The translations under genes and the position numbers were made by a program. Positions 2,086-12,145 of a stretch of 14,201 nucleotides of DNA are shown here, piece after piece. Position 1 is the stretch's first letter, and the number at the start of each line of letters is the position of its first letter. A model generated the notes under the pieces. That model ran no database searches, was not told the origin of the DNA, and saw only the letters and a program-made list of their open reading frames with translations. Source of the DNA: a bacterium UBA3734. Lineage in GTDB: Bacteria > Bacteroidota > Bacteroidia > Bacteroidales > Bacteroidaceae. Where the stretch lies: NCBI GenBank assembly GCA_002372575.1, contig DFHC01000177.1, positions 2,960 to 17,160 on the forward strand, given 5' to 3'.

Positions 2086-5000
2086 TTAAAAGAGTACCTT
2101 TCGGCCACCTTGAATATAGATGCCACGGGCGCGGGGCTGTTTGACGCGACGTCCTTGCAGGTCGTAGAGAGGCTGCGTGGAGCGGTCGATGCTTCCATTG
2201 TCGATGATGCCCTGAATGGCGGTGGGGAGAATAGCGGTTTCGTCGTTTTCCTCGATGATTTCATAGATGGCTGGAGCCGTTCCGTTCCATGAGAGGCGCA
2301 CACTGGCAGCTTTGGGATACGATGTGAGGTCGATGCGTTGCGCACTCTGCGAGAGTGTCGTGATTTGTGTCCAGTTTACGCCGTCCTCGGTCACTTCCAC
2401 TTTCACGCCCGATGGCACGTCGTTGCCGCTGAAAATCGTGATGGAAGTGGTGGGATGCTGCTGCACAAGGCGGTAGATCAGCATATTTTTGTTTGGCACG
2501 ACAAAAGTCGATGGCGTGGCATCGATGGCGTTTACAGCCGCCAGTCCGTTGCCGTCCACGCAGCGTGGCGACACGCAACTTTGCTTGTTCACTTCCATTT
2601 CGAACAATCGCAGCCATTTGTCGGTCTTGGCATTGACGACGCGCAGTCGCACGAACTTTGCCTTAGCCTCGTCGCCGTCGAAATCAACGTATTTCATCTC
2701 GTTTCCGCCCTGTGTGGCATAGCTTCCATTGAGCGTGAAGGTGGTCGTGCTTGTGCCTTTGACCTTCAGGGCTGTCCACGAACTTCCGTCGGCGGAAACC
2801 TCAACACGCGCCGAGTTCATGAAGTCGTTGTTCTTCGTGCCGAAACAGATGCGCACGTCGCGGATGATAGTCTGAGAGGCCAGATTGAGCACATACGTGT
2901 CGCCATTAGCCTGATTCTTTTTCACGGCCCACCACGTGTCGTAGTTGCCGTCGGTGAGGTTGGAAAGAGGCTGGTCTTCTGCATTGTCGCCCTCGGGGAC
3001 GGTGACGCTTTTGATTGACGGACTTCCCTCGGGAACTATCGAGAACGTCGTCAGGTTAAACTTGGCTGTCTGCGTCTCGTCGCCGATATTCTCGAAAATG
3101 ACATATTTCACCAGGCCATTCGGCAGTTCGTCTTTGTTTTCGAGCGTTTTCCACGTACGGAAATCCTCGCTGTATCTCACGGTAAACTGCTGCAAGAGCG
3201 TTTCGTCGAAAGTCCATCGGCCGATGCGTATGGCTTGCGGCAGACTGATGCCGGCAAAGCGGCCAGACGGCACTTCCAAAGCTGTTGCAGCGAGGTAATA
3301 GATATTGTTGCTGCTACTGTAAACTGCCCGGAAGAGGTTGCCCGGGTCGGTCGGCAGGTTATGGACTACTCCATGCTTCTGGTCGGCTGACTCAAAGGCG
3401 TTTTTCAGGATGTTGTCGCGCATCCAATAGACGAAGGGGTAGAAATATTTGTGCGACGCCTGTGCCTGTCTTGCCGACACGCTGACCCACTGGCCCATGC
3501 CTTCGAGGGCGTAGGCCGTATAGGCCGTGTTGGTTTCGAGGTCGGGAATCATGTTGAGAGCCGTCACGTAGCCTGGCCAGCGCTCCAGAAGGTCTTCTGA
3601 ACCTTCAGCGGCGTCCATCATCTTGAGCGTGATGTCCACCATGGCCTGCAACTTGAGCAGCCATGGCCTGATGTCGGCGTAGAGCAGGCGGTTGCTCTCG
3701 ATTTCGCTGTCTTTGTAGGCCAGGAACTTCGCGCAGATGTTTTGCATATTCAGCATCCGTTCGCGCATTTGTGCAACATAGGTGTTCGAGGCGTTGTTGA
3801 TGCGGTTTTTCAGGTTATTGATGAACGTTCCGAAGGTGCTGGGGTCGTTCCAGCGCAGATAGTCGCAGAGCAGGGAGAAGTCCTCGGCGTCGTCGTTGCC
3901 TACGACGGCCTTCACGGCAGCCTGATAGCTTTTCGTGTTGTTGAATCCGGCCGTGTGCCAGCTGTAGTCGGCCACGCTGAACAAGGCCAGTTTCGAGAGT
4001 TCGCCCTCTTGCATCGGGTTGCTGACGATGCCAATGCCGCCCGTGAGCGTCGAGGGCAGCGTGCCGTTGCTGTTCACCTGCGGCATCTCGAAGAAGTTGG
4101 CGTACATGTCTTTCGTATAGATCTGGCCGTCGGAGTTGTCGTTGCAGGGATAGTTCCACCACCAGCCCACGTCGCGTCCGAGATACTGGCGCACGACGTT
4201 GAGGTCGTTGCTGTTGGGAATACTCCACACGCCCCATCCCGTGGTGTAGATGGTGATGTTTTTGGGCGTGGAGGCGAGGGCCGAGAAGAATCCGCGCAGA
4301 TTGTCGGCGCTGACCCAGCTCGATGCGTAGGCTTGGGGCACGAAATGCAGCGGACGAACCGTGTCGGCAGGGGCTGCTCCGGCCTTGTTGTACTTCGATT
4401 CCAGTCCGCGCTGCACGGCGGTGAGCCGCGAGGCGTTGAGTTTGAACTGCTCTTCGCTATTCGGCATTCCCACGTCATCGACGAAAATGGCAAACTGGCG
4501 CACGCCGAGGTTGTACATCTTGTAGAATTTCCCCAGAATATCGTTCACCACCGTATTGCTTCCGAGGAAGTTGTTTCCCGGATGGATGGCCCAGATGAAG
4601 TTCACCTTCGTGGCTGCCGACTGCTTCGTGAGGTCGCGCACCATATTCTGCGTGAGCCAGCCTTTTTCCTCTTGGTCGGGCGTGATGCTCGTGGGGTAGG
4701 GGTCCTGCCAGTTGTTTGAGTGGTAGGGGTCGCTTTTCGCGCCGTAGAGATAGGTGTTCATCTTGAAGCGCATCATGAAGCGCATCAGGTCTTTCTTCAC
4801 GCTGATGCTATAGGGGTAGCCGTAGTAGCCTTCCACGAGTCCGCGACTTTGCAGGTCGGCATAGTCGCCGATGGTCACGGTTGGCATCGCGTTGGTGGCG
4901 TGTTGGTCCATCATTTGCTCGAGCGAGGCCAGTCCGAAGAACACGGCGTCGGTGTTTTCGCCGAGCACGATCAGGCGGGCATTGCCCTCCGTCTGCCACA

Positions 5001-5361
5001 GGCGGAGCACGTGGCGGTCGTATTTGTTGCGTTGCCTCAGTGCCGTGCGGCTCAGACTGATGGCCGTGGCCTGCTGATCAACGATTTCGCCGCTGCCGCC
5101 AACGCCGAGCAGGATGTTCGACACGCCATCGTTGATGGCTGCCGAGAACGAGGCCGACAGTCCGTGTTCAGACAGAATTTGCGACAAGCGGTTTTTTGTC
5201 GGCTCGTCGATGCTGCTTTCGCACACCACGTTCACGTTTTGGGTGAAAACAGCCGTTTCGCCGCCGTAGTTTACGCTCTGCGGAACGGGATAGATGCTAT
5301 ACGTCTGCGCTGAGGCCACGAGGGCGAGGCAGAGGGCTACAAAAGTAAGGATTCTTTTCAT
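2086..5361 (-). CDS. Secreted GH84 beta-N-acetylglucosaminidase with discoidin-like modules
   Basis: The likely product is a 1091-residue exported enzyme that removes terminal beta-linked GlcNAc from host or microbial glycans. MKRILTFVALCLALVASA is a signal peptide with cleavage before Gln19. Residues about 20-160 form the N-terminal alpha/beta domain seen before GH84 and GH20 barrels. The barrel carries LVEGYYG (175-181), YLYGAKSDPYH (204-214), and the catalytic Asp pair in FVDDVG (Asp295-Asp296), which serves substrate-assisted catalysis in GH84. WWWNYP (400-405) follows in the barrel. After a helical region come beta-sandwich modules, a clear F5/8 type C (discoidin) domain at about 780-925 and a weaker one at about 930-1035. 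The tail ends with YDLQGRRV (1066-1073) and GIYI, a short C-terminal motif common in Prevotella secreted proteins and possibly a sorting signal. An in-frame ATG at 5442 lies upstream of the promoter box and would hide the signal peptide, so I prefer 5361 (5367 is also possible). smpB follows after 12 nt. Confidence 0.92.
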   Translation of the reverse strand: MKRILTFVALCLALVASAQTYSIYPVPQSVNYGGETAVFTQNVNVVCESSIDEPTKNRLSQILSEHGLSASFSAAINDGVSNILLGVGGSGEIVDQQATAISLSRTALRQRNKYDRHVLRLWQTEGNARLIVLGENTDAVFFGLASLEQMMDQHATNAMPTVTIGDYADLQSRGLVEGYYGYPYSISVKKDLMRFMMRFKMNTYLYGAKSDPYHSNNWQDPYPTSITPDQEEKGWLTQNMVRDLTKQSAATKVNFIWAIHPGNNFLGSNTVVNDILGKFYKMYNLGVRQFAIFVDDVGMPNSEEQFKLNASRLTAVQRGLESKYNKAGAAPADTVRPLHFVPQAYASSWVSADNLRGFFSALASTPKNITIYTTGWGVWSIPNSNDLNVVRQYLGRDVGWWWNYPCNDNSDGQIYTKDMYANFFEMPQVNSNGTLPSTLTGGIGIVSNPMQEGELSKLALFSVADYSWHTAGFNNTKSYQAAVKAVVGNDDAEDFSLLCDYLRWNDPSTFGTFINNLKNRINNASNTYVAQMRERMLNMQNICAKFLAYKDSEIESNRLLYADIRPWLLKLQAMVDITLKMMDAAEGSEDLLERWPGYVTALNMIPDLETNTAYTAYALEGMGQWVSVSARQAQASHKYFYPFVYWMRDNILKNAFESADQKHGVVHNLPTDPGNLFRAVYSSSNNIYYLAATALEVPSGRFAGISLPQAIRIGRWTFDETLLQQFTVRYSEDFRTWKTLENKDELPNGLVKYVIFENIGDETQTAKFNLTTFSIVPEGSPSIKSVTVPEGDNAEDQPLSNLTDGNYDTWWAVKKNQANGDTYVLNLASQTIIRDVRICFGTKNNDFMNSARVEVSADGSSWTALKVKGTSTTTFTLNGSYATQGGNEMKYVDFDGDEAKAKFVRLRVVNAKTDKWLRLFEMEVNKQSCVSPRCVDGNGLAAVNAIDATPSTFVVPNKNMLIYRLVQQHPTTSITIFSGNDVPSGVKVEVTEDGVNWTQITTLSQSAQRIDLTSYPKAASVRLSWNGTAPAIYEIIEENDETAILPTAIQGIIDNGSIDRSTQPLYDLQGRRVKQPRARGIYIQGGRKVLF

Positions 5362-5382
5362 CTTCATTCGAAAATTTTTCCG

Positions 5383-5414
5383 CAAAGGTAGTGAAAAGTT
5401 TCCTATGAGAGAAA
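5383..5414 (-). promoter_or_regulatory. Bacteroidetes-type promoter for the GH84-smpB unit
   Basis: On the minus strand TACCTTTG (5390-5383) matches the -7 consensus TAnnTTTG exactly, and TTTC (5414-5411) lies 20 nt upstream where TTTG is expected. The predicted transcript starts near 5380, giving a leader of about 13-19 nt to the ATGs at 5367 or 5361. This placement decides the GH84 start, because the in-frame ATG at 5442 would lie outside the transcript. Confidence 0.75.
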
Positions 5415-5475
5415 CTTTTTCACATTTTTTCAAAATTATCAAGCAAAGCGCGCCCCTTATCTGACGGAAATCGCC

Positions 5476-6204
5476 TTATTGTTCGCCCAGTTCCTTGATT
5501 TTCAGGTCTTTTGCGTCGATGGAACCAACTCCATTCACGTAATTCGAGAAATTTTGCACCTCACCACCCAGTTTGATGCTTCCCACGCCTTCCATCGTGC
5601 AGTGGACCGAGCCGCTGTTTTGGAAGTTCTCCACCTTGATGTTTCCCACGCCATTCATACTGAGCTGAGTTTCCTGCGCGGTGACGTCAGAAAGTTGAAT
5701 CGAGCCGGCTCCTGCCACGTTGGCCTGCAAGCGGTCGCAAATGAGCGACGGGATATTGATGCTCCCCACACCCTCCATGCTCAGGCGCAGCGTGTCAGTG
5801 TCAAGCGTGCCCTTCGTCTTGAACGATCCTACGCCGCTCAAGGCCACGCCGATGAGGTCTGGCGAGGTGACATAGATAAGGATTTTCCCCTTTTTGCGTT
5901 TAATGGCATTTTTCGGTTCCTTCACGTTGATTTGTAGCATTTCTCCGTCGCTTTTCACGCTGATGAGTTCGGCGTCTTCAGCCTTGCTGTACCGTGCACG
6001 AACGCTTGTAGAGTCGCCTTGCACGTAGATGACTCTACAAACGCCGTCGATGCTGATGCGCTCGAAGGCGGCGATTTCGCCAAATGTTTTTGAGTACTTG
6101 AGCGTCAGGGGCTCGCTCTTGTCGTTTTTGATGTTCATACGGCATGCGCTACACAGCGCAATGGTGGCTATCAAGGCCGTCAAAATCATCATTTTCTGTT
6201 TCAT
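5476..6204 (-). CDS. GIN-domain (DUF2807) lipoprotein, predicted beta-solenoid
   Basis: The protein has 242 residues and a lipoprotein signal ending LCSAC, with Cys21 as the lipidated residue, so it should be membrane-anchored at the cell envelope. From about residue 40 it matches the Bacteroidetes family called putative auto-transporter adhesin, head GIN domain. The second half holds six copies of a G-V/A-G-S/N-I/F motif starting at residues 124, 145, 165, 185, 206 and 225. That regular 19-21-residue period is one coil of a parallel beta-solenoid per repeat. The family's function is poorly known, and the adhesin name rests on fold resemblance only. The gene lies between the metallopeptidase and GH84 genes on the same strand. 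I see no TAnnTTTG box upstream, only the 11-bp repeat array. A TTG/CTG alternative start is not needed, since ATG at 6204 gives a normal signal peptide. Confidence 0.88.
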   Translation of the reverse strand: MKQKMMILTALIATIALCSACRMNIKNDKSEPLTLKYSKTFGEIAAFERISIDGVCRVIYVQGDSTSVRARYSKAEDAELISVKSDGEMLQINVKEPKNAIKRKKGKILIYVTSPDLIGVALSGVGSFKTKGTLDTDTLRLSMEGVGSINIPSLICDRLQANVAGAGSIQLSDVTAQETQLSMNGVGNIKVENFQNSGSVHCTMEGVGSIKLGGEVQNFSNYVNGVGSIDAKDLKIKELGEQ

Positions 6205-6233
6205 AATGTTGCTATTTTATTGGTTTAATTCTC

Positions 6234-6277
6234 TTTCACTCCCCTTTCACTCCCCCTTCACTTCCCTTTCTTTTCTT
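6234..6277 (-). repeat. Second tandem array of the 11-bp GGGGAGTGAAA unit
   Basis: Read on the minus strand, two perfect units (6255-6245 and 6244-6234) are preceded by decayed units GGGAAGTGAAG (6266-6256) and AAGAAAAGAAA (6277-6267). The unit and the order (decayed first, then two perfect) match the array at 151-196. The array lies about 30-75 nt upstream of the GIN lipoprotein start, purine-rich in the sense direction of that gene. Confidence 0.85.
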
Positions 6278-6324
6278 TAGACGGAAAGCAGCTGCAAAAA
6301 GTTGCAGATTTCAACAAAAAAATG

Positions 6325-6364
6325 AAAAAACCGCCGACATTGCTGCCGACGGCCTTGTTTTTTT
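6325..6364 (-). terminator. Probable intrinsic terminator after the metallopeptidase gene
   Basis: The segment starts 8 nt beyond the metallopeptidase stop. A GC-rich core with GCCG (6333-6336) able to pair with CGGC (6350-6353) is flanked by six A on one side and seven T on the other, so on either strand a stem would be followed by a T-run. The stem is imperfect (its inner part is a GCCGAC direct repeat, not an inverted one). Termination is therefore plausible but not certain. Confidence 0.5.
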
Positions 6365-6371
6365 GAGGCGA

Positions 6372-7247
6372 TCACAGCTCGCTCTCGGGAATATTGAACG
6401 TGGTGACGTTCATGTCGCCCCTCTTGATGCCGAGGCTGAGCCACTTCATGCGCTGTGCCGAGGTGCCGTGGGTGAACGACTCGGGCTGCACGTAGCCCTG
6501 CGCCTTCTTTTGCAGGTAGTTGTCGCCGATTTTCTGGGCGCAGTCGATGGCTTCCTCCACGTCGCCCGCCTCGAGCGAGTTGTATTCCTGATCGTCGTAG
6601 TGCGCCCAAACGCCGGCGTAGTAGTCGGCCAAAAGTTCGAGCCTGACGCTGATTTTGTTGGCCGAAACCTTGTCGGTGCGGCTCATTTGCTGGTGCGCCT
6701 GGCCGAGGATTCCGAGCAGGTTCTCGACGTGGTGGCCGACTTCGTGCGCAATGACGTAGGCGTAGGAGAAGTCGCCGTCGGCACCGAGCTGCTGCTTCAT
6801 CGTGGTGAAGAACGAGAGGTCGATGTAGAGTTTCTGGTCGCCCGAGCAATAGAAGGGTCCGACTGCCGACGATGCCGTTCCGCAGGCCGAATTGACGCGA
6901 TTCGTGAAGAGCACGAGCGTGGGCGGCTGATACTTGCGGCCCATCTGCTGGAACACCTTCGCCCAGACGTCTTCGGTCGAGGCCAGCACCTGGCGCGAGA
7001 ACTTTGCCAGCTGCTGCTCTTCCTCGGTGAACTCGCGCTGGCCGTCCATCTGCTCTTCCTGCACGGTGCCAAGTCCGCCCTGTTGCACCACATTGGTCAC
7101 TACGTCGCCCAGGTTTCCGCCGCCGAGCAGCGTGAACAGGGCAATCATAATAATACCTCCGAGGCCGCCGATTCCAGCCTTTGTCGCTGTGCTCATACCG
7201 CGACGATCCTCGACGTTGCTACTTTCTCTTCTTCCGTCTAATCTCAT
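6372..7247 (-). CDS. YpfJ-type neutral zinc metallopeptidase (Zn_peptidase family)
   Basis: The protein has 291 residues. It opens with the family's conserved NVEDRRG (11-17), followed by one glycine-rich membrane segment (about 27-45), so the peptidase domain probably faces the periplasm. The conserved ACGTASSAVGPFYC stretch (121-134, with Cys122 and Cys134) precedes the zinc motif HEVGH (His168, Glu169, His172). LELLADYYAGVWAH (203-216) supplies Glu204 and Asp208 as likely third ligand and support. The length and motif order are normal for the family (PF04228; E. coli YpfJ). The substrate is not known for this family. The gene is divergent from the kinase gene at 7364, with 116 nt between them containing a promoter for each direction. 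ATG at 7247 places NVEDRRG near the N-terminus as in relatives. Confidence 0.92.
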   Translation of the reverse strand: MRLDGRRESSNVEDRRGMSTATKAGIGGLGGIIMIALFTLLGGGNLGDVVTNVVQQGGLGTVQEEQMDGQREFTEEEQQLAKFSRQVLASTEDVWAKVFQQMGRKYQPPTLVLFTNRVNSACGTASSAVGPFYCSGDQKLYIDLSFFTTMKQQLGADGDFSYAYVIAHEVGHHVENLLGILGQAHQQMSRTDKVSANKISVRLELLADYYAGVWAHYDDQEYNSLEAGDVEEAIDCAQKIGDNYLQKKAQGYVQPESFTHGTSAQRMKWLSLGIKRGDMNVTTFNIPESEL

Positions 7248-7363: not shown

Positions 7364-10300
7364 GTGGAAACGAGAAATCAGCGGACTTTTGAGCCCTTCA
7401 TTCGGTTTTTCGGACGATGCCTCGCCTTGCTGCTGGGCACGCTCTGTTTTTCGGCCTGTACGACGCGCAACAGCGATGCCGTTGACAGGCTGAACGACTT
7501 GGCCTACGCCCACCACTACCGCTCGCTCGATTCCACGAGAATCTATGCCGAAAAAGCCCTCAGGCTGGCTTCCGACGACGACGCACGGGCCGAGGCACTG
7601 AACCATCTTGCCTTCGTGAGCATCGTGGAGATGGACTACGACCGCGCCAAGCGACTACTCGACAGCATTTCCACCGACAACCTCATCGAGTTGCTCGTGG
7701 CCGACGTGCAATGGATGCGACTTTGCCAGCGCGAGTCGCAAAACAAGCTTTTCTACGACTATCGCGAGCAGGCCCAGCGGCGCATCCGTCGTGTGGAAGA
7801 GGAGCGCAACCGCCTTTCGCCGCATCAGTCGCGCCGCTTCGTGTATGCCCTGTCGGAGTTTTCGCTCGTGGAGTCGGTGTATTTCTACTATGTGGGACTT
7901 GCCGAGCAGTCGCGTGCGGCCATCACCGCCATCAATCTGAACGAGGAAATCGCCGGCGACACGGCGCAATTGCTCAATTATTTGTATAATGTGGGTGCGG
8001 GCGGCGTGATTGAGGCTGGGACGAAGCACGAGGTGAGCGAGCGCGAGTTTGAATACCTGCTTCGCTGCCATCAGCTGGCGAGGCGGGGCGGCTACAAATT
8101 CTTCGAGGCGCAGGCGTTGCAGGGAATGGGCGAGCATTTGGAAGACGTGGTTTTCCGCGAGCGATATTTGCGGGAAAACCTGTCGGTGGAGGGCATTATC
8201 AACCCCGACGAGATGGCCGATTCGCTCCTCGCGGGCTACTTGGCGCAGCGCGCGCTCAACCTGTTCATCGACTATGGCGACGTCTATCAGACGGCGGGCG
8301 CCTATCGCACGCTCGCGGAGTGCTACTGGGGGCTGAGCGACTATCAGTCGGCGGAAATCTGCCTGCTCAATGCGCTGAACCGCGACACGGTCATCAACCG
8401 TGCGCCCGACCTCGTGGCCAGCATCCGCGAGCAGCTGAGCCTCGTCTATTCCGCCATCAACGACAAGCCGCGCAGCGACCAAAACCGCAACCTCTACCTC
8501 GACATGCAGGAGCAGACGCGCCAAGACCGTCAGCTCGAAGCCCGCGCCGACCAGTTGCGGCAGTCGTCGCGCCAGCTGAACACGATGATTGCGGCGGTGC
8601 TCGCAGCCATTCTGCTGCTTTTGGCCCTGCTGTATTTCTTCCACCGGCTGCGCCGTCGCAACGACCAGCTCCACACCACCGACACGCTCTTGCAGCCGCT
8701 CGAATCGTGGAAGCAGCAGACACAGGCGAAAATGCACGAGTTGGAGGAGCGCGACGAGGAAATCCACGAGCAGATTGAGCAGGTGAAACTGCATATCCTG
8801 AACAACAAAAAGCGCAATTTGGAGCAGCGTGCCAAGGTGTCGCTCGTGAACAGCATCACGCCCTTCATCGACCGCATCCTGAACGAGGTGCGCCACCTGC
8901 TCCGCGACAAGGAATCGGCTTCGCGCCGGCGCGAGCGACTTGCCTACGTGGCTGAACTGACCGACAAAATCAACGAATACAACGCCGTGCTCACCGATTG
9001 GATTCAGCTGCGGCAGGGCGAGCTGAGCCTGCGCATCGAGAGTTTCCCCTTGCAGTCGCTGTTCGACATCGTGAAGCGCGGAAAAATGGCCTTCCAATTG
9101 AAAAACATTGACTTCGTGGTGGAGGACACGCGCGAAGCCGTGAAGGCCGACAAGACGCTCACGCTCTTCATGCTCAACACGATGGCCGACAACGCCCGAA
9201 AATTCACACCCGAGGGAGGCCGCGTCACGATTTCCTCGACCTCGACCGGCGATTTCGTGGAAATCTCCGTCACTGACACGGGCTGCGGAATGAGCGAGGA
9301 GCAGCTTTCCACGCTGTTCACGCATCAGCCTGCGTCGTCGCACGGCTTTGGGCTGATGAACTGCAAGGGAATCATCGACAAATACCGCAAGGTCAGCAAG
9401 ATTTTCAGCGTCTGCGAGATTTCGGCAGAGAGCGAACAGGGTAGGGGAAGCCGATTCTGGTTCCGGCTGCCGAAGGGCGTGGTTCGAGCCATCGCATTCT
9501 TGATGCTTTTCCTCGCGCCAGCCGCGAGCAGCCACGCCGCAGAACCGCTGGCCAAGGCCGCCGCCTATGCCGACAGCGCCTATTATTGCAACATCCGAGG
9601 CGACTTCGCACAGACGCTGCTCTTCGCTGACAGTTGTCGCCGACAGTTCAACGAGCACTACCAGACGATGTCGCCACGAGGCTCGCTCCTGATGCTGGAA
9701 TACGACGACGCGGCCCTTCTGCCAGCCGAATTGCAGTGGTATCGCGACAGTCTGCCGACGGACTACGACGTCATTCTCGACATCCGCAACGAAACCGCCG
9801 TCGCCGCCCTCGCGCTGCATCGCTGGGAACTCTACGCGTATAATAATAAGGTATATACACAGCTTTTCCGCGAGCTCTCTGCCGACAAGACGCTCGACAG
9901 CTACTGTCGCGTGATGCAGAAGTCGGAAACGAACAAAAACGTGGCCGTCATCCTGCTGATTTTGCTGCTTCTGGCCATTTTCCCGGCCTATTATTTCCTG
10001 TATTATCGCCATCGGCTGGCCTATCGCTACAACGTGGAGCGCATCAACCACATCAACCAAACGCTGCTGAGCGAGGCTTCTGCCGAGGAGAAACTGCGGA
10101 ATATCCGGCAGCTGTGGAAGGGGAAGTCGAAGTCGCCCGACGAAAAAGACCAGTTGCTCGACGAACTGGTGGCGCAGATTTCCGACGCGCTGCAGCGAAG
10201 CATCGAAAACGACCACCTGCAGCAGACGCACCTCGAACTGGCCGAGGACGAACTGCGCCGCTCGCAATACGAAAACGACCAGCTCCACATTAGCAATAAC

Positions 10301-10840
10301 GTCTTGGACAACTGCCTCTCGACACTGAAACACGAGACGATGTACTATCCCTCGCGCATCCGACACCTGATTTCGCCGGCCTCGGAGGGCGTTTTCGACG
10401 AGGAAAACCTGCCGGCCATCGCCGAGCTGGCCTCGTACTACAAGGAGCTTTACACCCTGCTCAGCGCGCAGGCGATGCGACAGGTCGAGGGCAAGCAGCG
10501 CATCGACCGCGAGCAACTCGAACATCTCTTTGAAATCCTTCGAAAACACGGCGGCAGCGAACCCGTGGCAACCGAAAACGGGGCTCCGCAGGGTTACGTC
10601 AGCGTTGTTGTCGGAATGCCTGCGCTGCAACTTTCCGACCGCCAGCGCACACAGCTCTTCACGCCGCTCACCGTGGATTTCGACTACTTCCTCTGCCGGC
10701 AGATTGTGCGCGACTTCGGCGAGGCCGCCAACGCCCGTGCCTGCGGCATTCAGGCCGTTTCCGAGCCCGATGCGACGGGAAAACCGCAAGAAAAAATCGT
10801 CATCACACTAACAAAACAGATATGGAACCTTTTAAAGTAA
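7364..10840 (+). CDS. Tandem sensor kinase-like lipoprotein: ATPase half fused to H-box half (DUF5112/DUF5113-like)
   Basis: The protein has 1158 residues. The N-terminus has a lipoprotein-like signal ending LCFSAC (Cys32), then an all-helical TPR-like sensory region (about 40-395) and TM1 (408-426). After a coiled coil (430-490) comes SLVNSITPFIDRIL (493-506), in the H-box position but with Asn496 in place of His. The ATP-binding domain follows: N box NTMADNARKFTP (605-616), DTGCGM (638-643) and SHGFGLMN (659-666). Residues 706-726 are hydrophobic and end SSHAAE, like a signal peptide. A second extracytoplasmic region (727-857) leads to TM3 (858-881), a coiled coil, and LKHETMYYPSRI (988-999) with His990. 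The C-terminus resembles an ATPase domain without its N and G boxes. The halves align (N496 with H990; RQ-RIE-LF with RQ-RID-LF). From memory the family corresponds to Pfam DUF5112/DUF5113 of Bacteroidales. The response regulator gene overlaps its 3' end, so it is the likely phosphate acceptor. The GTG start is the only usual one between the upstream in-frame stop (7343-7345) and the signal peptide. Confidence 0.85.
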   Translation: METRNQRTFEPFIRFFGRCLALLLGTLCFSACTTRNSDAVDRLNDLAYAHHYRSLDSTRIYAEKALRLASDDDARAEALNHLAFVSIVEMDYDRAKRLLDSISTDNLIELLVADVQWMRLCQRESQNKLFYDYREQAQRRIRRVEEERNRLSPHQSRRFVYALSEFSLVESVYFYYVGLAEQSRAAITAINLNEEIAGDTAQLLNYLYNVGAGGVIEAGTKHEVSEREFEYLLRCHQLARRGGYKFFEAQALQGMGEHLEDVVFRERYLRENLSVEGIINPDEMADSLLAGYLAQRALNLFIDYGDVYQTAGAYRTLAECYWGLSDYQSAEICLLNALNRDTVINRAPDLVASIREQLSLVYSAINDKPRSDQNRNLYLDMQEQTRQDRQLEARADQLRQSSRQLNTMIAAVLAAILLLLALLYFFHRLRRRNDQLHTTDTLLQPLESWKQQTQAKMHELEERDEEIHEQIEQVKLHILNNKKRNLEQRAKVSLVNSITPFIDRILNEVRHLLRDKESASRRRERLAYVAELTDKINEYNAVLTDWIQLRQGELSLRIESFPLQSLFDIVKRGKMAFQLKNIDFVVEDTREAVKADKTLTLFMLNTMADNARKFTPEGGRVTISSTSTGDFVEISVTDTGCGMSEEQLSTLFTHQPASSHGFGLMNCKGIIDKYRKVSKIFSVCEISAESEQGRGSRFWFRLPKGVVRAIAFLMLFLAPAASSHAAEPLAKAAAYADSAYYCNIRGDFAQTLLFADSCRRQFNEHYQTMSPRGSLLMLEYDDAALLPAELQWYRDSLPTDYDVILDIRNETAVAALALHRWELYAYNNKVYTQLFRELSADKTLDSYCRVMQKSETNKNVAVILLILLLLAIFPAYYFLYYRHRLAYRYNVERINHINQTLLSEASAEEKLRNIRQLWKGKSKSPDEKDQLLDELVAQISDALQRSIENDHLQQTHLELAEDELRRSQYENDQLHISNNVLDNCLSTLKHETMYYPSRIRHLISPASEGVFDEENLPAIAELASYYKELYTLLSAQAMRQVEGKQRIDREQLEHLFEILRKHGGSEPVATENGAPQGYVSVVVGMPALQLSDRQRTQLFTPLTVDFDYFLCRQIVRDFGEAANARACGIQAVSEPDATGKPQEKIVITLTKQIWNLLK

Positions 10841-11547
10841 TCATCGTAGAAGACGTGCCGCTCGAACTGAAAGGCACCGAAGGAATTTTCAGAAACGACA
10901 TTCCCGAGGCCGAAATCATCGGCACGGCGGAAAACGAGCAAGCCTACCTGAAGCTCCTGAAAAAGCAGGTGCCCGACCTCGTGCTGCTCGACCTTGGACT
11001 CGGCGGCTCCACCACCGTCGGCGTGGAGATTTGCCGCTACACGAAAGAGGCTCATCCGCAGGTGAAAGTGCTGATTTTCACGGGCGAAATACTCAACGAA
11101 AAACTCTGGGTAGATGTGCTCGATGCCGGTTGCGACGGCATCATCCTCAAGAGCGGCGAACTACTCACGCGCAGCGACGTTTCGAGCGTGATGGACGGCA
11201 AGACGATGGTGTTCAACGAGCCGATTCTCACGAAAATCGTGGAGCGATTCAAAACCAGCGTCGGCTCGCAGCTGATGCGTCAGGAAGCCCTCATCGACTA
11301 TGAAATCGACGAATACGACGAGCGATTCCTGCGCCACCTCGCACTGGGCTATACGAAAGAGCAAATCACGAACCTGCGCGGGATGCCTTTCGGCGTGAAA
11401 AGCCTTGAAAAGCGCCAGAACGACCTCGTGCAAAAGCTCTTTCCCGACGGCAACGGTCGTTACGGCGTGAACGCCACGCGACTGGTGGTGCGAGCCCTTG
11501 AAATGCGCATTCTCGACCTCGACAACCTTCAACCCGACGAACAATAA
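10822..11547 (+). CDS. Response regulator, receiver plus NarL-like output domain
   Basis: The protein has 241 residues. The receiver domain (about 4-125) has the acidic pair Glu10-Asp11, phosphoacceptor Asp57 in LVLLDLGL, Thr87 in IFTG and Lys110 in ILKSG, so all catalytic positions are present. Residues about 163-232 form a helical output region starting DERFLRHLALGYT, which looks like the opening of a LuxR/NarL-type helix-turn-helix but diverges after KEQITNLRG. A loop FPDGNGRYGVN lies where the recognition region should be. This resembles the Bacteroidales output domain I recall as DUF5932, and DNA binding is probable but inferred. The ATG lies inside the end of the kinase gene (19-nt overlap, another frame), so translation is probably coupled and the kinase is almost certainly its partner. 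The next gene starts 1 nt after its stop. Confidence 0.92.
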   Translation: MEPFKVIIVEDVPLELKGTEGIFRNDIPEAEIIGTAENEQAYLKLLKKQVPDLVLLDLGLGGSTTVGVEICRYTKEAHPQVKVLIFTGEILNEKLWVDVLDAGCDGIILKSGELLTRSDVSSVMDGKTMVFNEPILTKIVERFKTSVGSQLMRQEALIDYEIDEYDERFLRHLALGYTKEQITNLRGMPFGVKSLEKRQNDLVQKLFPDGNGRYGVNATRLVVRALEMRILDLDNLQPDEQ

Positions 11548-11548
11548 G

Positions 11549-12145
11549 ATGACGTACCGACGAATCGTAAACTACCTTGTGCTGGCGCTCATCGTGGCGC
11601 AGATTGCGCTCGTGCTGGTGTCGTGGCTTGTTACGGCGGCGTGGCCCGAGCTGCCCATGCACTCGCTGCTGAGCAGCGGCGGCATCCGTTGGCTCTTTGC
11701 CTCGATCACGCAAAACCTGCTCACGCCCGTGCTCGTGTGGCTGATGTTCGGCTGCATGGCATACGGCGTGCTGCGCGAGAGCGGCTTGTTGAGCCTGCGC
11801 CGTCCCTACACGTTCCGGCAGCGCTCGGCCCTGCGATTCGTTGCCGTCGAAATCTTGCTGTTTGTCGTCGTTTTGCTGCTGCTGACCCTCACTCCCCATG
11901 CGCCCTTGCTCAGCGTCACGGGCGAGCTGTTCCCGAGCAGCTTTTCCGACGGTTTGGTTCCCTTCGTGTGCCTTGCGCTCGTGGTCATGGCCGTCACTTT
12001 CGGCCTCGCAACGGGGCGGTTTTCTTCGCTCGGCAGTGTTGTCGAGGCTCTGACAAAGGGATTCTCAAAAGGCGCATCGCTCTGGCTCCTCTATATTCTG
12101 GCCGCCGAGTTTTTCGCCTCTCTCCGTTATTTTCTGGGGACTTAA
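11549..12145 (+). CDS. Small multi-pass membrane protein resembling part of an AbgT transporter
   Basis: The protein has 198 residues and about five hydrophobic segments (7-29, 52-75, 95-115, 135-155, 177-193). The stretch SLLSSGGIRWLF (39-50) followed by a membrane segment and LRESGLLS (75-82) resembles the N-terminal part of AbgT-family p-aminobenzoyl-glutamate transporters. Those are about 500 residues long, so this is under half of one. It has no frameshift or remnant downstream, so it looks like a real short protein and not a decaying one. I do not know its function. An upstream in-frame ATG at 11498 lies inside the response regulator gene and adds an unlikely polar extension. ATG at 11549 is 1 nt past that gene's stop, which argues for co-translation with the two-component system. 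It might be a third component or a target of the system. Confidence 0.7.
   Translation: MTYRRIVNYLVLALIVAQIALVLVSWLVTAAWPELPMHSLLSSGGIRWLFASITQNLLTPVLVWLMFGCMAYGVLRESGLLSLRRPYTFRQRSALRFVAVEILLFVVVLLLLTLTPHAPLLSVTGELFPSSFSDGLVPFVCLALVVMAVTFGLATGRFSSLGSVVEALTKGFSKGASLWLLYILAAEFFASLRYFLGT

Follow-up and report, generated by a model that had tools for sequence, protein, structure and literature searches.

Complementary loss of phosphoacceptor and ATPase sites in a fused, apparently internally duplicated sensor kinase of the Bacteroidaceae

We analysed a 14,201-nucleotide stretch (the window) of contig DFHC01000177.1 from the bacterium UBA3734 (assembly GCA_002372575.1), which encodes a fused sensor kinase and, directly downstream, a response regulator. 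The kinase reading frame opens with a GTG start codon and comprises two halves, each with a dimerization and histidine phosphotransfer (DHp) domain and a catalytic and ATP-binding (CA) domain (Table 1). Its DUF5112 and DUF5113 matches exceed the curated Pfam cut-offs, DUF5112 scoring 336.3 bits (cut-off 29.4) and DUF5113 scoring 204.9 bits (cut-off 27.1).

Table 1 Features of the kinase gene and the adjoining regulator gene in window coordinates
Feature	Position	Strand	Evidence or remark
Fused sensor kinase, 1158 aa	7364..10840	+	Pfam DUF5112 + HATPase_c + DUF5113
N-terminal lipoprotein-type signal peptide, ending at Cys32	7403..7459	+	Sequence; Cys in 175/181 non-redundant relatives
DUF5112, residues 40-301, putative periplasmic sensor part	7481..8266	+	Pfam; TPR-like in model
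Partial first DUF5113 copy, residues about 343-427, leading into transmembrane helix 1	8390..8644	+	Second match in the window genome, 68.1 bits
DHp1, residues 470-552	8771..9019	+	Alignment
Asn496 codon, inside SLVNSITPFIDRIL, at the phospho-His position of DHp1	8849..8851	+	
CA1, intact ATPase domain, residues 556-704	9029..9475	+	Pfam, alignment, fold match
CA1 motif, N610	9191	+	
CA1 motif, DTGCG	9275..9289	+	
CA1 motif, GFG	9344..9352	+	
Internal signal-peptide-like junction, residues 704-725, KGVVRAIAFLMLFLAPAASSHA followed by AE	9473..9538	+	Sequence, hydrophobicity
Second DUF5113, residues 729-882, putatively periplasmic, ending in transmembrane helix 3	9548..10009	+	Pfam; hydrophobicity
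DHp2, residues 962-1042	10247..10489	+	Alignment
His990 codon, inside LKHETMYYPSRI	10331..10333	+	Glu991 adjoins
CA2, degenerate ATPase domain with the kinase CA fold kept, residues 1045-1156	10496..10831	+	Alignment, fold comparison
Response regulator, receiver + DUF5932	10822..11547	+	Pfam; D57 codon 10990-10992

The two halves have lost complementary functions. In half 1, CA1 strongly matches the Pfam model HATPase_c (residues 603-704, E 2.3e-17) in a segment that contains N610, D638-G640-G642 and G661-G663, with Asn496 at the site of the phosphorylated His. In half 2, His990 is present, MPALQL aligns with DTGCGM of relatives, and the N-box Asn is absent. The earlier note on this DNA had read the protein as an ATPase without a His joined to a His without an ATPase, and both the Pfam match and the alignment bear this out. 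CA2 keeps the fold of kinase CA (GHKL) domains despite its degenerate motifs. Neither half is a complete kinase unit, since half 1 lacks the phospho-His and half 2 the ATPase motifs; by sequence, the two functions reside on different units, as in split kinases, but within one open frame rather than in separate proteins.

This division is kept in the aligned relatives. The master alignment comprised 450 rows after removal of two repeat-containing ones; some proteins are present twice, so that rows are not independent genomes, and 181 rows remain at 75% identity. N610, D638, G640, G642, G661 and G663 of half 1 are invariant in all 449 rows with the residue, as are His990 and Glu991 in all 447, and S986, K989, H990, E991 and P996 are invariant in 388/388. 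By contrast, position 496 holds 16 residue types (N 340, T 33, Y 24, C 8, H 8, M 7, D 6, S 5, L 5, with another seven types among the remaining 14 rows). Of the two residues whose conservation the earlier note proposed to check, His990 is fixed and Asn496 is not. The N-box Asn is missing from half 2 in all 29 sequences sampled.

In 82 of the 84 loci examined, a regulator like that of the window directly follows the kinase on its strand; the remaining two loci have 0 and 727 bases downstream of the kinase. Residues E10, D11, D57, T87 and K110 are invariant among these regulators (83/83), corresponding to a receiver with its acidic pair, phospho-Asp, Thr/Ser and Lys. At the level of sequence, we regard the complementary loss, the conservation of that loss and the neighbouring regulator as firmly established. 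The start codon of the regulator gene lies within the end of the kinase gene, an overlap of 19 bases (10822-10840) that suggests coupled translation.

In the window's own family, which is a major gut and rumen group, 312 of 399 genomes have DUF5112, spread over 25 of 30 genera. Across the phylum, DUF5113 was found in 6 of 395 genomes, five from this family and the sixth a weak match below the cut-off. In protein searches, the public names are 'DUF5112' in Prevotella and 'DUF5113 domain-containing protein' in Bacteroides. In the three Bacteroides-type genomes among these matches, frames of 1440-1495 aa contain two full DUF5113 copies, whereas the shorter Prevotella-like members have one full and one partial copy. 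The long members L117, L118 and L119 have additional segments in both halves that separate the membrane helices from the DHp domains, look GAF-like by eye and are absent from the two Prevotella-like rows; the Pfam scan of L119 returned no GAF match. DUF5932 was found in none of 11 tried family genomes without DUF5112, in which the unfused kinase was not searched.

Unfused relatives of the kinase also exist. In two genomes from another family of this order, a 718-aa single kinase lies next to a regulator that matches DUF5932 weakly. A protein search with this kinase returned P0344 and P0345, the latter a DUF5112 protein above the Pfam cut-off, and P0345, when searched against 344 genomes of the order, yielded a further locus in genome G1123 (L204), beside a response regulator. 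All 11 single kinases tabulated have intact His-Asp and all six ATPase residues, and those whose start was read have lipoprotein-type signals. The unfused kinases (P0344/P0345, the P0241 group, L204, and L160/L161 of G888/G1070) share with the fused protein the lipoprotein-type start and an alignable DHp motif, and L160, L161 and L204 also share the adjacent response regulator. They differ in being single units with both His and ATPase, of 657-920 aa as against roughly 1000-1540 for fused members. Profiles of half 1, half 2 and the single kinases align mutually, with N496, H990 and the His of the singles in one column. Because the unfused relatives have both functions, the comparison suggests, as the simplest history, duplication of a complete kinase, fusion and reciprocal loss. 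A C-terminal HD(D/E)..RGC(K/R)I-like motif (window residues 1106-1131) is common to half 2 of long members and to the unfused kinases; it is absent from half 1 and from one canonical kinase printed alongside.

The junction between the halves resembles a signal peptide. In the 181 non-redundant rows, its median uncharged run is 15 residues and its median 19-residue hydropathy 1.70, compared with 18 and 1.88 for the N-terminal signal, 20 and 3.15 for transmembrane helix 1, and 23 and 2.71 for transmembrane helix 3. Because the junction resembles the N-terminal signal in hydrophobicity and differs from the two membrane helices, a role purely as a membrane helix seems less likely. A lipobox is present at the junction in 39/180 rows (27/49 long members) versus 2/181 and 6/178 for the helix 1 and helix 3 controls, and in 113 of 118 Bacteroides-type rows before removal of redundancy. 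Most short members (90/131) have an AxA-like site there, by a rule that often fires on controls as well; the signal-peptidase-I rule accepts 103/180 junctions but also 79/181 and 71/178 of the respective controls and is thus a weak discriminator. As applied here, the signal rules together miss 179 of 365 N-terminal signals. The candidate cleavage site in the window is SHA/AE, after residue 725, and in the structural model residues 707-726 form one of six stretches with a predicted local distance difference test (pLDDT) score below 50. An internal translation start at the junction is not supported, as no start codon is fixed at position 706 (V 64, I 45, L 12, M 11; 153 rows).

Judging by these features, half 2 probably started out with an export signal of its own, and cleavage of the fused chain at the junction may persist. 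A stronger version, which we put forward tentatively and at somewhat less than even odds, is a polyprotein kinase: a true internal signal peptide, of the lipoprotein type in Bacteroides-like and mostly of the signal-peptidase-I type in Prevotella-like members, would be cut on export to give a strictly 1:1 heterodimer whose subunits carry complementary halves of one active site. The FbcH cytochrome polyprotein of Bradyrhizobium would be a bacterial precedent for a cut polyprotein; our literature search returned no paper on it.

Coevolution between the halves was analysed on 447 rows by mean-field and pseudo-likelihood methods, the latter limited to the DHp1 and DHp2 columns. By mean-field, the significant bands were α1 of DHp1 with α2 of DHp2, antiparallel (p 0.040), α2 of DHp1 with α1 of DHp2, antiparallel (p 0.017), and α1 with α1, parallel (p 0.023), while four wrong-orientation controls gave p 0.09 to 0.81. 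Pseudo-likelihood recovered the α1(1)-α2(2) antiparallel band (p 0.002), with the parallel coiled coil borderline (p 0.057), and its top four couplings were all between DHp1 and DHp2, outranking those within the hairpins. Among its top 50 inter-half pairs, 24 were in register (13.9 expected, p 0.0019) and 5 in the wrong orientation (13.7 expected); by mean-field, 25 were in register versus 12 in the wrong orientation. For these counts, windows of +-8 were placed around registers derived from homology offsets together with the register within DHp1. Although the depth is modest and some results run the other way, coevolution favours a heterodimeric four-helix bundle in which DHp1 packs against DHp2, be it within one chain or between chains, which the method does not tell apart. 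This bundle, supported but not proven, would place CA1 to act on His990 in trans between the halves.

Based on these findings, we consider it probable that the protein is an internally duplicated histidine kinase acting as a single-chain or processed heterodimer with one surviving active site, in which phosphate passes from ATPase 1 to His990 and on to Asp57. DHp1 and DHp2 would pair in one four-helix bundle, as subunits do in an ordinary kinase dimer, and a signal on the periplasmic parts would shift the paired helices. ATP bound to CA1 would then phosphorylate His990 of the partner DHp2, in trans between the halves, and the adjacent DUF5932 regulator would receive the phosphate at Asp57; DHp1 and CA2 would be retained as structural or regulatory parts. 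We infer the phosphotransfer steps from knowledge of kinase families and from the invariance of the residues concerned; the integration of signals and the within-chain or between-chain pairing are likewise inferred. The earlier note had proposed that ATPase 1 serves His990, which then feeds the adjacent receiver. That proposal is partly supported: it fits the strict complementary conservation, the regulator in nearly all loci, the complete unfused relatives and the DHp1-DHp2 couplings. Its view that each half needs the other is likely to be right, whereas the AND gate that it proposed for two extracytoplasmic inputs is hypothetical. The signal-peptide-like junction, the duplication history and the pseudo-dimer geometry go beyond that account.

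Several results weigh against this interpretation. The effective number of sequences is about 190 at 80% identity, falling to 43 at 62%. The α2-α2 parallel band was not significant in either run (mean-field p 0.66), nor were the α2(1)-α1(2) and α1-α1 bands by pseudo-likelihood; a wrong-orientation block, α2-α2 antiparallel, scored p 0.003 by the same method, and the intra-DHp2 control was not significant with either. For both antiparallel pairs, the best diagonals are displaced from the homology registers by 5-8 residues, and for α1-α1 parallel by 7-11 (best 505 by mean-field and 487 by pseudo-likelihood; expected 494). The register windows behind the top-50 counts were fixed after the pseudo-likelihood result had been seen, and the binomial tests take pairs as independent. 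The strongest mean-field coupling overall joins residue 488 of DHp1 to 1119 of CA2, which the bundle alone does not explain. CA1-DHp2 coevolution has no clear pattern, the His990 region being invariant, and CA1-DHp1 couplings are at least as strong. Beyond the couplings, half 2 retains the Asp of DxGxG in 19/29 and the first Gly of GxG in 13/29 sequences, and by DHp-CA scores (medians 72.9, 44.7 and 77.4 bits) the halves are no nearer to the unfused kinases than four canonical kinases. The alignment rows were chosen as single open frames, so that a split gene might have escaped, and our literature search found no biochemistry on this kinase family.

In an alternative arrangement, each DHp domain would pair with its own counterpart on a second chain, giving separate DHp1 and DHp2 homodimers, and CA1 would reach His990 across a higher-order complex or cluster. 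Ordinary kinases homodimerise, the predicted template modelling (pTM) score of just 0.53 leaves the domain arrangement open, and the non-significant or off-register blocks are compatible with it; against it, the DHp1-DHp2 couplings cluster near dimer-like registers and head the pseudo-likelihood ranking, and we consider it unlikely. A different rewiring is exemplified by DivL of Caulobacter crescentus, a kinase-like protein that has lost its phospho-His, kept the CA fold and acts on another kinase. By analogy with DivL or RcsD, another kinase might phosphorylate His990, or half 2 might be only a phosphotransfer or phosphatase module, with CA1 serving some other purpose. Pseudo-kinases that rewire other kinases are known (DivL; PMC4211667 and PMC5361649), and DivL (4q20) ranks with the best matches to the CA1 region in both fold and sequence. 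This explanation is nevertheless quite improbable, given that the six ATPase residues of CA1 never vary, that His990 lies in the same open frame in every row reaching it, and that no second kinase gene is seen in the window. Whereas a DivL-type pseudo-kinase has no phospho-His of its own, here the partner His is in the same chain.

It is also conceivable that half 1 still autophosphorylates on another residue, such as Tyr or His at position 496, and that half 2 is vestigial. The earlier note had named His at this position in homologs as evidence against its account, and His496 does exist in 8 of the 450 rows, with Tyr in 24. In all eight, however, the following residue is S, A, G or N and never acidic, whereas half 2 and the unfused kinases have Glu or Asp directly after the His. 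In a 79-row tree, at least 28 changes are required at position 496 and two for His; the two His496 clades fall inside an 18-row group of 8 Tyr, 8 His and 2 others. This tree is quick and unrooted and does not itself distinguish gain from loss. Because the His496 rows form two clades in a mostly Tyr group and lack a following acidic residue, we judge it unlikely that His496 is the retained ancestral phosphoacceptor; we read it as secondary, an apparently unconstrained site where a bare His arose twice, while His990 never changes. Elsewhere the position is N, T, M, C, L or one of nine other types, and the block around His990 is invariant. Autophosphorylation of half 1 is therefore hardly credible as an explanation, and we retain the reading in which CA1 serves His990.

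Split kinases as such are already known. In Rhodobacter sphaeroides, neither CheA3 nor CheA4 autophosphorylates alone (PMC3591291). Hik36-Hik43 is another split kinase (PMC7656254). The likeness to CheA3/CheA4 is that ATP-binding and phosphoacceptor functions lie on different polypeptide units that must meet (PMC3591291). That system consists of two CheA-type proteins, each with its own gene; here, membrane sensor halves are fused in one gene, and each half has both DHp and CA, one of them dead per half. CheA proteins are marked by P1 (HPt) and P5 domains. No CheA-type domain was found among 14 Pfam matches with E up to 1. In HK1-HK2-TcrA of Mycobacterium tuberculosis, the ATPase is in one protein and the phosphoacceptor His in another, and both feed one regulator; the genes are separate, one kinase cut in two, unlike a duplicated kinase with reciprocal loss. 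The system is tabulated as three genes, Rv0600c-Rv0601c-Rv0602c (PMC8965865). Laboratory complementation between His-dead and ATPase-dead subunits tests for cis versus trans autophosphorylation, with MtrB coming out as cis, and is known for CheA through a reference in the same report (PMC5956149). The division of labour is the same, in made mutants there and fixed by evolution here. Our literature search found no paper on DUF5113, DUF5112 or DUF5932, families named in Pfam, and the excerpts on pseudo, tandem and fused kinases, pseudodimers and internal duplication held nothing recognised as this design. The apparent novelty lies in a fused duplicated kinase whose reciprocal loss is maintained across a bacterial family, in the pseudo-dimer favoured by coevolution and in the internal signal-peptide-like junction. 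If the interpretation holds, the protein would be a natural, fixed version of that complementation, would reveal which parts of a kinase dimer are needed in one subunit only, and would offer a clean route to asymmetric (one-site) signalling. A cut at the possible internal signal peptide would be an unusual means of enforcing 1:1 subunits.

Downstream of the regulator gene, window positions 11549-12145 (+) encode a short AbgT-like membrane protein of 198 aa that matches profile positions 250-355 of 502. In the Bacteroides-type locus L118, a full 506-aa AbgT transporter directly follows the regulator; in L120, the 210-aa frame in its place gave no Pfam match. An antisense open frame of 1044 aa (7655-10789, -) spans almost the whole kinase gene and is probably a shadow of codon bias in G+C-rich DNA. 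The opposite-strand neighbours at 2086-5442 (-) and 5476-7247 (-) comprise a beta-N-acetylglucosaminidase (NAGidase) with an F5/8 domain, a DUF2807 protein and a putative neutral zinc metallopeptidase.

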